From Calditrichia bacterium (GTDB taxonomy: Bacteria; Calditrichota; Calditrichia; Calditrichales; Calditrichaceae), in NCBI GenBank assembly GCA_026983775.1, contig JALSTK010000080.1, positions 1 to 61,028 of the forward strand: 61,028 nt of DNA. The letters run 5' to 3'. A program made the position numbers and the translations under genes. Positions 52,527 to 57,918 of the stretch are shown here, one piece after another. How positions within the stretch are numbered: position 1 is the first letter of the stretch; each line of letters starts with the position of its first letter. The notes under the pieces are model-generated. The model ran no database searches. It was not told the origin of the DNA and saw only the letters and a program-made list of their open reading frames with translations.

Positions 52527-54719
52527 TTATTTCTTCGGTTTTTTTCCCAGTTCCTCTTTGCTCTTTTCCAAAACCTCTTTTTGAGAAGCCCCCAAAACAT
52601 CGGCATGGCCGTCTCCATCCAGATCCACGGGCTTTATATAATTTACTTCCGGATCGATAAAAATCAACCCGTTTTTGATTCCTTCATCAAAACCCTGGAT
52701 TGTATTGGAAGTGAAACTGAGTATACGATCTTCGATTTCTCCGTTTTTACCGTGACAGGCCGTACAGGTGCCGTTGGCTCCGAGAGCCTGATCCGCAGGA
52801 AGCACATTATGGGATACTTTAAAATAATGTGCACCGATGAAAAGAACGGGATCGGGGTCTTTCTCGCCTTCTTTGCGCAGAATCTTTTGCAGGGCTTTGC
52901 GCATCATTTTAATATCCTGCAGAGTGCTGATTTCGGGTTTCATATCCGGATGCCCCATGAAGCCCGTTTTATCGAAAATCTTATCTCCGGTGATCAGCAA
53001 GGCATAGCGTTGCCCCTTTGGGGTCATCCGAATACCCTTAACAGCCGCATTTAATTCCCGTGGATAAAGCACCTTATTCAGTGTTTTATCAAGCCAGGTT
53101 TGAATGGTTATGGGGTTGGCCGGAATAATCTGGTCGCCGCGCAGCGTATGGGCATAAATGAGTGCCGGTTCCCATTCGAATCCCTTTTGTCCGCTCATGT
53201 GCTGATACATCTTGCCGTAAAGATCATCGGGATGGTCGGGCAGCATATAGGCTACGGGAGCCAGTTTATCGGTGGCATAATCATCGGTTTCCGTATGACC
53301 TACCAGCCAGTTTATATTACCCATACCATACATGGGAATGGGCCCGTAGTAGGGAGCCATGAGCACATCCATCATTCCGCCCCTGGGATTGGGAAAGTGG
53401 CGGTTATCATAGTTGTAACTGAAACCGAGGGAATAATCGAAGGTGCGGAATGTCCAGTACCTGACCCGGGCAATATGGCAGGTTTCGCAGGCAATTTTAT
53501 CCAAATGACTCTTGGCTGCGCTTCCGAATAGCTTTTGATGCGCTTCTGAAGGATCGGGTCCGTCACCGCTGGTAATATGACAGTAATAGCAATTTTTAGG
53601 CGGGGGATTATTGTCCAGGTCATCCCGGACATGATTGCCGGTATCGTTTCCTTTAAGGAAATTGTGATCGGCGTCAACCACATAGTCATCCCATGCCAGG
53701 GAATCGGGCCTGGGATTCGTATGACAACTGGTACATTCCAGACCTGCCGCGCCGTGGACATCGTAGCCGGGGTCTTTTTCTGTTTTAGGATCCAGATTCC
53801 AGATTTCACCTCTTTTTACTATATCGGCTTTCATACCCATGCCCCAGGTGCGTACCTGCAGGCTGTGATTGATCGGATCGGTGACGCCAACATGACACTG
53901 TCCGCAGACACGGGTCCATTTATTATCGCCGTTTTCCGTATCCTTGGAGCTTAACATGGGGATATTTATTTCATTGTCTTCATCGAATTCATTGACTTCG
54001 TAATAGACATCCGTATGAAAATCTTTTTTACCTTTAACGATTTTAACGTAGGTTATCGGATAACCGTCCTGGTTGTTATCCCAGCCCATCAGTCCGGCCG
54101 AGGGTGCTTCGCGGAAAAAGTGACCCAGAAATTTCCGTTTTGCCTGTAGCCCTGTATAGGGATCGCCTTCACCTTCCACATAAGGCTGCCGCATATAGTT
54201 CCTGGAATCGGCCATGGGGTTTTCCAAATCCGAATAAAATTTACCGGGCATAAATCCCGCTTTATTCCGGGACAGGGGGTCCGAATAATTAAAAGCCGAT
54301 TGCCATCCCCGGCCGGGATAGATTCCCAGGGACACGGCATTCACTTTACCGTCTACCCGTTTGGCGAAAATGCGGAGTCTGGGATTATATGCCACCGGCT
54401 TAATTCCCTGGGCGTCCGTAACACGTTTGCTATCCGGATCCAGGTGGCAGGTAAAACAATCGGCTTCCAAAGAGCCTGTTTTACGCCAATCAAATTTATG
54501 CGGCTTTTGCGCGGTGCCGTGCTCGGTCTCTGATGTACTGTAGCTATAATAATCGCCGTCCAGGTCAGGGACGGTATTGGGATCGATTGTATCCATTCGT
54601 TTGCCGTTACGGTCAAATTCATAAGGGCCTCCGCCGGGATGACAGGAAGCGCAGGTAGCCACTTCATCGGGTGTACCGATATCAAAGGTTAGTTGGGATT
54701 TATTATGTTTTTGCGCCAA
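52527..54719 (-). CDS. Octaheme c-type cytochrome, main part after an in-frame UGA
   Basis: 730 residues read from a TTG at 54719 but probably not translated from there: it has no signal peptide, which c-type cytochromes need. Seven CxxCH haems are visible (CASCH, CFTCH, CGQCH, CTSCH, CYYCH, CETCH, CTACH); an eighth is in the upstream part, in the same frame, separated by one UGA at 54740-54738. The end has a DLDGDGHADVLG calcium-type loop. It is a periplasmic or surface electron carrier or reductase. I cannot assign the substrate. Treat this and the next feature as one interrupted gene, 52527-55088. Confidence 0.85.
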   Translation of the reverse strand: MAQKHNKSQLTFDIGTPDEVATCASCHPGGGPYEFDRNGKRMDTIDPNTVPDLDGDYYSYSTSETEHGTAQKPHKFDWRKTGSLEADCFTCHLDPDSKRVTDAQGIKPVAYNPRLRIFAKRVDGKVNAVSLGIYPGRGWQSAFNYSDPLSRNKAGFMPGKFYSDLENPMADSRNYMRQPYVEGEGDPYTGLQAKRKFLGHFFREAPSAGLMGWDNNQDGYPITYVKIVKGKKDFHTDVYYEVNEFDEDNEINIPMLSSKDTENGDNKWTRVCGQCHVGVTDPINHSLQVRTWGMGMKADIVKRGEIWNLDPKTEKDPGYDVHGAAGLECTSCHTNPRPDSLAWDDYVVDADHNFLKGNDTGNHVRDDLDNNPPPKNCYYCHITSGDGPDPSEAHQKLFGSAAKSHLDKIACETCHIARVRYWTFRTFDYSLGFSYNYDNRHFPNPRGGMMDVLMAPYYGPIPMYGMGNINWLVGHTETDDYATDKLAPVAYMLPDHPDDLYGKMYQHMSGQKGFEWEPALIYAHTLRGDQIIPANPITIQTWLDKTLNKVLYPRELNAAVKGIRMTPKGQRYALLITGDKIFDKTGFMGHPDMKPEISTLQDIKMMRKALQKILRKEGEKDPDPVLFIGAHYFKVSHNVLPADQALGANGTCTACHGKNGEIEDRILSFTSNTIQGFDEGIKNGLIFIDPEVNYIKPVDLDGDGHADVLGASQKEVLEKSKEELGKKPKK

Positions 54720-54737
54720 CTGGCGGTAGGAAGGTGG

Positions 54738-55088
54738 TCACCAGGAGCCGTACTGACCGGCAGAAAGCAGATGAGAGTAATGAAATTTGGGATGAGTCTT
54801 ACCCCAGCTATCACCCATATCCGTAGCCCCGATCTGGAAATGGTAAGCCTTGGTGATGGCTTGGTAATCGTGGCAGGAACCGCAGGTTTGTTCCGGACTA
54901 TAAGGGTTGCCTTTGTAATAGGTTATGCCGTTAAATACTAATTTTTGTCCGCTTTTTTTAGCGATTTCAATTACATTATCCCCGTTGGCATCCAGCAAGG
55001 GAATTTTGGGATGTTCGGATGCCTGAGCCTGAAAGATACAAAGCAGCAGCAGCGACATCGCCCATAACGATTTGGTAAATACAGACAT
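54738..55088 (-). CDS. N-terminal part of the octaheme cytochrome (signal peptide and first haem), ending at UGA
   Basis: 116 residues ending at UGA 54738-54740. A signal peptide (about 1-23, ending QAQA) is followed by DANGDN and CGSCHDYQ, the first haem motif. The frame continues past the stop, GSW then PPSYRQL, into the main cytochrome part without shift. A strong AGGAGG ribosome site lies at 55094-55099. A single base change of GGA (Gly) or another sense codon to TGA explains the break. A sequencing error, a true pseudogene or recoding are the choices. Confidence 0.85.
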   Translation of the reverse strand: MSVFTKSLWAMSLLLLCIFQAQASEHPKIPLLDANGDNVIEIAKKSGQKLVFNGITYYKGNPYSPEQTCGSCHDYQAITKAYHFQIGATDMGDSWGKTHPKFHYSHLLSAGQYGSW

Positions 55089-55431: not shown

Positions 55432-56559
55432 ATGAATAAAGATAAAAGGCAACAAATTATACAGCTTACCATTATCGGTCTATTGGTTATCGGTATTTCC
55501 ATCTTACACTACCAAACTCCGACGATGAAATGGCAGTATCATCTGGTCTATATGCAAGCCTATTTCATTCCGATTATTCTGGCTGCTTTTCAGTTTGGTG
55601 TTCGTGGCGGTTTGGGGACGGCCATCGTGGTGTGCCTCATCTATCTGCCTCATATTATGCTGCAATGGGGAGGATTGATCGAGACCAACCTGATGCGTTT
55701 TATGCAATTAATTCTGTTTCTCGTACTCGGCTATTTAACCGGTCTGAAGGCGGAAGGTGAACGGAACGAAAAAGAGCAGCATCGCAAAGCAGCCGAGGAT
55801 CTGAAAGAGGCTCTGCGTCTGCAACAAAGACAAACCGAACAGATTTCCGAGATGGAACAGCAGTTGCGGGCAGCAGATCGTTTAGCGATCGTCGGTGAAT
55901 TGGCGGCCAGTCTAGCCCATGAAGTTCGTAATCCTTTGGGAGGAATCCAGGGCGCTGCCGAAATTTTAAAGAAGAAAATTCCGAAAGAAGCGCCGGAATC
56001 GGAGTTTGTACAAATCCAGCTCAATGAAATTCAGCGTCTGAACCAGGTGGTGGAGAGCTATCTGCAATTGGCTAAAAAAGAAACGGTTTATTTTCAAATC
56101 ATCGATCTCCGAAAAATCCTGATTAATTCGCTCCGGCTCCTGCGGCTGTCTGCCGGAAATAAAAATATAACACTCGAAACACATTTTACCGATCAGAAAA
56201 AAATTTTAGTCCAGGGCGATGCCTTACAGCTTCAGCAGGTTATTCTGAATATTACTCTGAATGCCATTCAGGCCATTAAAGATTCCGGAAAAATCAGCTT
56301 TGATCTTGACGTGGGCAAAGACGGGAAAGAGGTCGTTCTGCGTATCAGCGATACGGGGCCCGGAATTCCCAGCTACCAATCCGCCCGATTATTTGATCCC
56401 TTTTTTACAACCAAAACAGAGGGAACCGGTCTGGGCCTTGCCATCGTAAAAAGGATTATAGAAAAACATGAAGGAAAAGTTTGGTTCGAAACGAGTTCAC
56501 AGGGGACTTCTTTCTTTGTATCTCTCCCTTGCGTAAAGGATTTAAACCATATTTCATAG
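55432..56559 (+). CDS. Membrane sensor histidine kinase
   Basis: 375 residues. About four N-terminal hydrophobic helices (about 8-106, with short loops and no large sensor domain) precede a coiled coil (about 110-150). The phospho-acceptor is His163 in SLAHEVRNPLGGIQGAAE. The ATPase domain has NITLNAIQAIKDSGKI, DTGPGIPSY and GTGLGLAIVKRI boxes. This is a NtrB/AtoS/ZraS-type kinase. It ends nine bases before the sigma-54 activator gene, so the two form a pair that likely controls the metal-efflux operon downstream. Confidence 0.92.
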   Translation: MNKDKRQQIIQLTIIGLLVIGISILHYQTPTMKWQYHLVYMQAYFIPIILAAFQFGVRGGLGTAIVVCLIYLPHIMLQWGGLIETNLMRFMQLILFLVLGYLTGLKAEGERNEKEQHRKAAEDLKEALRLQQRQTEQISEMEQQLRAADRLAIVGELAASLAHEVRNPLGGIQGAAEILKKKIPKEAPESEFVQIQLNEIQRLNQVVESYLQLAKKETVYFQIIDLRKILINSLRLLRLSAGNKNITLETHFTDQKKILVQGDALQLQQVILNITLNAIQAIKDSGKISFDLDVGKDGKEVVLRISDTGPGIPSYQSARLFDPFFTTKTEGTGLGLAIVKRIIEKHEGKVWFETSSQGTSFFVSLPCVKDLNHIS

Positions 56560-56568
56560 GAAATAACC

Positions 56569-57918
56569 ATGATACACATTCTATTAATAGATGATGATCA
56601 GAGTTTGATTCGGGTAACCGAATACCAGTTGAAGGAAGATGGATTCCAGGTTAGCGTCGCCAGAGACGGCAAAGAGGGGTGGAAAAGATTTGAGAACGAA
56701 CATCCCGATCTGGTGATCTCCGATATTAATATGCCCTATTTGAACGGCTTTGAACTGATCCAGAAAATTCGCAAAGTGGATACACATATACCGATTATTA
56801 TTATGACGGCTTACGGCTCTCTGGATAATGCGCTGCAATCGACCGATTCGGGTGCAGATGATTATCTGACAAAACCGTTCAGTTTTCAGACCTTAAAATT
56901 TTCCATCCAAAAATGTTTGCAGTTAAGAGATACTTCGAGCGAGAATGAACGGTTGAAACGGGAACTGTATGATAAATTTGCACCGGAGAATATTATCGGC
57001 CAGAGTGAGGCCATGAAAAATGTTATGCAAACGGTTGCTAAATTAGCCGCAAGTGATTCCACGGTTCTGATCTACGGCGAGAGCGGAACCGGGAAGGAGT
57101 TAATCGCCCGGGCCATCCATTCCCAAAGTAAGCGGTCCCGAAAACCGTTTATTGCGGTCAACTGTGCCGCAATTCCGGATAATCTTGTAGAGAGTGAATT
57201 ATTCGGACATGCCAAAGGAGCTTTTACAGGCGCTGTAGCCGAGACCAAAGGTAAATTTGAAGCGGCCGATCAGGGTACGATCTTTCTGGATGAGATCGGC
57301 GATTTGAATCTCGATATACAAACCAAATTGTTGCGGGTGCTCCAGGAACGGGAGATCGGACGCGTAGGAGAATCCGTTGTACGAAAAGTGGATGTGCGTG
57401 TAATAGCGGCTACCCACCGCCATCTGCAGGAGATGGTTACGGCAGGAACCTTTCGCCAGGATCTTTTTTACCGTTTGAATGTCATACCGCTCGACCTTCC
57501 GCCTCTGCGCGCGCGTAAAGCGGATATTCCGTTGTTGGCCCAGCACTTTGTCCATAAATTGGAAAAAGAACGTCAATTCAAGTTTTCTGCAGCAGCCCTG
57601 GAACAAATGGTGCAATATGACTGGCCGGGTAATATCCGGGAATTGGAAAACCTGGTCGAACGGTTTTCGATTCTAAATGCCGGAACCGAAATTCAACCCG
57701 ACCAGCTTCCCTGGAAAAGCATCGATTCTTCGGTTCGGGATGGTGTGTTGACCCTACCGTTCCCCGAAGAGGGTGTGAGTCTGGAGGAAATTGAAAAGTA
57801 TGTCATTCAACAGGCCTTATTGAAAAACCGGAATAACCAGACCAAAACCGCTCACTTTTTGAAAATGCCCCGTCATACCCTGATATATCGAATGAAAAAA
57901 TTTGGCCTGGATATTTAA
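56569..57918 (+). CDS. NtrC-type sigma-54-dependent response regulator
   Basis: 449 residues. Receiver domain 1-120 with phospho-Asp52 in LVISDINMPYLNG and lysine in TKPF. AAA+ domain (about 138-375): Walker A GESGTGKE (170-177), the sigma-54 contact loop GAFTGA (217-222), LDEIGDL Walker B, and R-finger region. The C-terminal helix-turn-helix (about 405-449) is Fis-type (NQTKTAHFLKMPRHTLIYRM). It activates sigma-54 promoters from enhancer sites. The twin palindromes and promoter downstream fit as targets. Confidence 0.93.
   Translation: MIHILLIDDDQSLIRVTEYQLKEDGFQVSVARDGKEGWKRFENEHPDLVISDINMPYLNGFELIQKIRKVDTHIPIIIMTAYGSLDNALQSTDSGADDYLTKPFSFQTLKFSIQKCLQLRDTSSENERLKRELYDKFAPENIIGQSEAMKNVMQTVAKLAASDSTVLIYGESGTGKELIARAIHSQSKRSRKPFIAVNCAAIPDNLVESELFGHAKGAFTGAVAETKGKFEAADQGTIFLDEIGDLNLDIQTKLLRVLQEREIGRVGESVVRKVDVRVIAATHRHLQEMVTAGTFRQDLFYRLNVIPLDLPPLRARKADIPLLAQHFVHKLEKERQFKFSAAALEQMVQYDWPGNIRELENLVERFSILNAGTEIQPDQLPWKSIDSSVRDGVLTLPFPEEGVSLEEIEKYVIQQALLKNRNNQTKTAHFLKMPRHTLIYRMKKFGLDI

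Follow-up and report, generated by a model that had tools for sequence, protein, structure and literature searches.

A putative selenocysteine-containing branch of octaheme c-type cytochromes distantly related to octaheme tetrathionate reductase

Octaheme tetrathionate reductase (Otr) of Shewanella, represented by the structure 1SP3 and the family model TIGR04315, is the described cytochrome to which the protein considered here can be related. In Otr, Lys153 reportedly ligates the active-site heme 2, and Cys64 is said to lie near that heme (work ascribed to Mowat, 2004). A May 2026 review counts 119 prokaryotic selenoprotein families or subfamilies, ExtKL included (PMC13188914). ExtKL (NF040886), found in Geobacter, is a multiheme c-type cytochrome with one predicted selenocysteine (Sec) (PMC13188914, PMC1914089, PMC5877670); its N-terminal part holds five CXXCH motifs, and its C-terminal part matches nothing known (PMC1914089). 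Table 1 of the same review lists WP_331457571.1, a ‘GenBank annotated’ TIGR04315 octaheme selenoprotein record, without motif or analysis (PMC13188914); it offers a partial precedent for Sec in octaheme cytochromes. Our search of the open-access literature returned no description of a Sec octaheme family, its SECIS element or a link between Sec and heme 2. The proteins described below look like a new, previously undescribed selenocysteine branch of the Otr-like octaheme cytochromes.

The window, that is, the whole stretch of DNA analyzed, comprises 61,028 nucleotides from a Calditrichia bacterium. On its minus strand, a single frame of 853 codons runs from 55088 to 52527 and contains exactly one internal stop, a TGA at residue 117 (54738..54740). 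On the basis of this single frame with its one UGA and of 47 distinct UGA-bearing homologous loci, the region (52527..55088, minus strand, as are all features listed here) is interpreted as a complete selenoprotein gene encoding an 853-residue octaheme c-type cytochrome with Sec117. An AGGAGG ribosome-binding site (55100-55095) stands ahead of a predicted signal peptide covering approximately residues 1-23 (MSVFTKSLWAMSLLLLCIFQAQA; 55020..55088), which was recognized by inspection of the sequence and not by a signal-peptide program. One CxxCH motif precedes the UGA, that of heme 1 (CGSCH, residues 69-73; 54870..54884), and seven lie beyond it, starting at residues 146, 211, 395, 452, 500, 534 and 775. 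Also identified from the sequence, these correspond to heme 2 (CASCH, 146-150; 54639..54653), heme 3 (CFTCH, 211-215; 54444..54458), heme 4 (CGQCH, 395-399; 53892..53906), heme 5 (CTSCH, 452-456; 53721..53735), heme 6 (CYYCH, 500-504; 53577..53591), heme 7 (CETCH, 534-538; 53475..53489) and heme 8 (CTACH, 775-779; 52752..52766). The first-pass annotation had described this same arrangement, a signal peptide and one heme motif ahead of a lone in-frame UGA and seven more hemes after it in an otherwise intact octaheme frame, and was correct on each point. The gene stands alone, flanked by a GFO/IDH oxidoreductase gene and, at its opposite end, by a histidine kinase/response regulator pair that runs divergently from it. 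The latter genes, the second of them encoding an NtrC-type regulator, occupy 55432-57918 and might regulate the cytochrome gene.

Profile comparisons identify the encoded protein as a distant relative of Otr. It matches the NCBIfam model TIGR04315 at 37.2 bits, below the cut-off of 375, and its homologues reach at most 44 bits. When compared by hhalign with Otr-type proteins of related genomes, one of which matches 1SP3 at E 1e-152, the protein aligns over hemes 4-7 with 98.3% probability and an E value of 1.6e-14, its heme 4 pairing with the Otr-type heme 4. With permissive settings the pairing extends, in order, to the full set of eight hemes, with lower confidence in the extended part. Lys425, within a D422-I-V-K425 motif (53814..53825), aligns with the lysine of the Otr D-A-V-K motif (Asp150-Ala-Val-Lys153, the lysine being residue 153 by counting in the 1SP3 alignment). 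Sec117 falls in the same segment between hemes 1 and 2 as Otr Cys64 without being aligned to it; confidence in the alignment is low there, and a residue-for-residue equivalence of Sec117 and Cys64 is unsupported. Searching PDB sequences with the Calditrichota profile gave no match, and a plasmid search likewise gave none. ExtKL is ruled out as the family of this protein by the failure of NF040886 to match it at E 0.001, and no genome among 385 relatives scored above the NF040886 cut-off.

Sec117, heme 2 and Lys425 probably form one active site, with contact between Sec and heme 2 being inferred. The comparison on which this rests is with a sister clade (100/100 support) of five 7-heme proteins (L055, L056 and L134-L136). 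Across the conserved Cys, His and Lys columns, the only differences from the Sec family common to all five members are at residue 117, which is N or D, and at Cys146, Cys149 and Lys425; both cysteines of heme 2, the proposed active-site heme, are thus missing along with the Sec and the lysine. The clade retains every other CxxCH motif, seven in all, as well as the remaining six invariant His, and Lys479 undergoes a mild change to Arg in two members. Because Sec117, the heme 2 cysteines and Lys425 are lost together while the other conserved heme residues are kept, we infer a joint active site. All five proteins sit on one branch and represent one loss event, not five. A genuine Otr-type gene adjoins four of the five loci, and the overall pattern is what would be expected if the 7-heme proteins lost the site as a unit upon becoming an electron-transfer partner of Otr. 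Separately, 7-heme cytochrome b fusions adjoining Otr-type genes (L055, L056, L134, L135 and L141-L144) resemble a quinol-oxidizing partner; we know of no description of such a pairing of a 7-heme cytochrome b fusion with an Otr-type gene.

How closely Sec117 approaches heme 2 can be proposed only tentatively. The Sec family has six invariant His outside the CxxCH motifs for eight hemes, leaving two hemes without an invariant distal His, and ligation of heme 2 by Sec or Lys would account for one of them. Sec117 could serve heme 2, the heme that bears the Lys, as an axial ligand or as a catalytic residue of the first shell, a suggestion that we hold as possible and not as probable. Coupled to it, and carrying the same degree of doubt, is the idea of a natural heme-selenolate respiratory enzyme, widespread in the family; a few lines would have lost it or put Cys, Ser or Asn/Asp in the place of Sec. 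An AlphaFold model built from six Calditrichota sequences reached a pLDDT of 30 and therefore gives no evidence of a Sec117-heme 2 contact.

An unlikely alternative is that the protein is a selenoprotein in which Sec117 lies outside any heme-centered site, acting as an independent redox group or binding a metal, and that the protein serves mainly as a conduit for extracellular electron transfer. Gene context in some relatives is in keeping with such a conduit. The long forms of family f16 (L049-L052) finish in a glycine-rich GGGGC tail (SSGGGGGGGCS...FRRKK-like) resembling a C-terminal surface-sorting tag, and one of them is located near 28-heme and 3-heme cytochromes, while in G273 the genes for a 12-heme cytochrome and for a 473-residue secreted-looking protein precede the Sec cytochrome gene. 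An octaheme paralogue present in some f16 genomes (L122-L125) points the same way: it has Ser in place of Sec and retains heme 2 and Lys425, which shows that heme 2 can be held without Sec. The conduit is harder to reconcile with the joint loss of Sec117, heme 2 and Lys425 without loss of any other conserved heme residue, with the match of Lys425 to the Otr lysine, and with a lone Sec in WUPPSYRQLA that has no thiol partner in a CxxU or UxxC arrangement. Elsewhere, L053 carries a C-terminal cytochrome b fusion of the formate-dehydrogenase gamma type, which suggests quinol as the electron donor. In G210, the Sec-octaheme/cytochrome b fusion (L147, G210:C34) adjoins homologues of arsE, arsF and arsG, which may point to a role connected with arsenic or nitroaromatics there. 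Gene neighbors vary by lineage and fit a terminal reductase without fixing its substrate.

The UGA codon is conserved from close relatives to distant lineages. A scan of genome contigs found TGA at the same codon in all five Calditrichota relatives, which are 68-77% identical to the window protein; overall, the gene occurs in 6 of 40 genomes of the phylum searched, with one TGA in each of the six. Among 385 genomes across the domain, distant homologues (~30-40% identical) in G273, G197, G049, G210 and G214 carry TGA in the same column, and the added high-GC members G552 and G553 also possess the UGA. Within f16, the family around G049, nearly every genome that holds the gene has one to three TGA-bearing copies. 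We take G049 to be Desulfurobacterium thermolithotrophum DSM 11699 and G515, whose distant homologue also carries the UGA, to be Thermovibrio ammonificans HB-1. Altogether, 47 distinct homologous loci bear the UGA, within the motif GxWU(P)PSYRQLA or a near form of it. Sequences within a family are not independent, and more weight is consequently put on deep representatives than on the count of 47. We conclude that UGA117 is a selenocysteine codon and not damage, the actual insertion of Sec being inferred.

Downstream of the UGA lies the predicted SECIS upper stem-loop, CGCC-AGUU-GGCG (54714..54725), which begins 12 nt past the codon. The first-pass annotation had placed this hairpin correctly and called it weak on account of its four-pair stem, a doubt at odds with base-level conservation of that stem across the 47 sequences. 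All 47 share the AGUU loop, the first three pairs (C-G, C-G, G-C) and the codons CAG TTG. A fourth pair persists in 46 of them, with A-U replacing C-G in two, and a fifth pair (C-G, G-C or U-A) is present in 34. The bSECIS model calls for a G in the first two loop positions, and the window hairpin satisfies both this rule, through its AGUU loop, and the expected placement, with its stem at +12 nt. In L053, which has two extra codons following the UGA, the hairpin shifts along with them and is lengthened to UUUCGCC-AGUU-GGCGAAA, and in the Cys-containing homologue L132 the codons read CAG CTC and the hairpin is gone. Codon usage provides a further measure of constraint. TTG makes up on average ~10% of the Leu codons of these genes, and 2% of those in the member with 72% GC; multiplied across seven deep representatives, the TTG frequencies give a chance of ~2e-8 for this codon alone. 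Among the five Calditrichota sequences, codons are identical at only 65 of 446 invariant residues, and the five codons of YRQLA form the only run of at least four identical codons at invariant residues in the gene. We regard the four-pair hairpin as the SECIS, a designation that by sequence alone amounts to ‘SECIS-like’.

The identity of the inserted residue is indicated by homologues and by the Sec genes of the host. L132, from G519, has Cys at the Sec position (NW-C-SPAPLYRQLA) and pairs on the tree, with 100/100 support, with the Sec protein L053 (RW-U-TPAPIFRQLA), providing the Cys/Sec pair expected of a bacterial selenoprotein. The Ser paralogue likewise clusters with other Sec proteins. 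Sec is widespread on the tree, and Cys and Ser look like later replacements, a direction inferred from nesting because midpoint rooting was used for drawing only. The window genome contains selA (497 bits), selB (377 bits), two selD genes (399 and 367 bits) and a tRNA-Sec (70 bits) with the anticodon TCA; tRNA-Sec was found in 22 of 23 genomes tested, the one exception being a genome that is 72% complete. One of the two selD genes (L002, G000:C153:27419-28351) is likewise read as a selenoprotein gene, with an in-frame UGA followed by a seven-pair hairpin.

Translation of the UGA as Trp, or its read-through by near-cognate suppression without selenium, would likewise yield a full-length protein, and we consider it highly improbable. 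TGA closes 6 of the 26 long stop-free frames in the window and so also serves as an ordinary stop, the L132 homologue has Cys and not Trp, the Sec gene set is complete, and the hairpin is kept at the level of individual bases; all of these count against such a reading. Although a single stop in an otherwise intact frame has the look of a fresh lesion, a sequencing error, new nonsense mutation or pseudogene can be disregarded because the same TGA recurs in 47 distinct sequences from independent assemblies, two finished isolate genomes (identity inferred) among them. Recent decay or error, with a one-base change from GGA to TGA, had been offered in the first-pass annotation beside read-through and recoding; decay or error is contradicted by those loci, and no homologue seen has Gly at this position. 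Every test named there that could be run favors selenocysteine: UGA stands at position 117 in all close relatives and recurs in distant homologues, one nested homologue has Cys, a conserved hairpin lies at SECIS distance, and the search of the genome for sel genes recovered selA, selB, selD and tRNA-Sec. That annotation did not recognize the wide family around the site, nor that the site goes together with heme 2 and Lys425.

The explanation we favor, and hold to be likely, is a full-length, exported Sec octaheme cytochrome related to Otr, with a Sec117/heme 2/Lys425 site and a probable role as a terminal reductase. Conservation of the UGA, a SECIS-like hairpin, a Sec gene set, a natural homologue with Cys, kinship with Otr and the coupled loss can all be read from sequence, while Sec insertion, Sec-heme 2 contact, reductase activity and substrate are inferred. 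According to this proposal, UGA117 would be read as selenocysteine by the host SelA, SelB, SelD and tRNA-Sec, with the AGUU-loop hairpin directing insertion. Sec117, heme 2 and Lys425 would then constitute a single active site, with Sec beside heme 2, to which the other hemes may feed electrons from the quinone pool or partner cytochromes. The enzyme would most likely act as a periplasmic or cell-surface terminal reductase, and the best guess at its substrate is an oxidized sulfur species or a similar chalcogen or metalloid; this is unproven. Weighing against the proposal are the absence of protein-level proof of Sec insertion and the Ser paralogue, which does not lose heme 2 or Lys425 with its Sec.

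Ordinary gene finding would split or truncate such genes at the UGA, and a respiratory cytochrome family is thereby easily missed. The family concerns two cultured hydrothermal-vent species (inferred identities) and many uncultured genomes, and several genomes hold up to three copies of the gene. If Sec is indeed at heme 2, the protein would have a selenocysteine-plus-heme active site, a type of chemistry for which engineered proteins are the only examples we know. With cultured isolates and the public proteome of D. thermolithotrophum HR11 (PXD070557, named in PMC12724263) to hand, the proposal can be tested.

Among described proteins, WP_331457571.1 (‘tetrathionate reductase family octaheme c-type cytochrome’) is likewise an octaheme protein of Otr type with a single Sec and could possibly be a member of the Sec octaheme family. 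ExtKL resembles the window protein in being a multiheme c-type cytochrome for which one Sec is predicted; it differs in having its five CXXCH motifs in the N-terminal part, whereas the Sec of the window protein sits between hemes 1 and 2. The 7-heme cytochrome b fusions beside Otr share the conserved heme residues of the Sec family apart from heme 2, but lack heme 2, Sec and Lys425, and seem, by inference, to be electron-transfer partners of Otr that possess no active site themselves. Compared with Otr itself, the window protein is approximately twice as long, has Sec instead of Cys, and contains a WUPPSYRQLA segment not found in Otr. The two nevertheless share a common order of their eight hemes (as paired in the extended alignment), similarity over hemes 4-7, a D-x-V-K motif between hemes 4 and 5, and a chalcogen residue between hemes 1 and 2, Cys64 by counting in Otr and Sec117 in the window protein.
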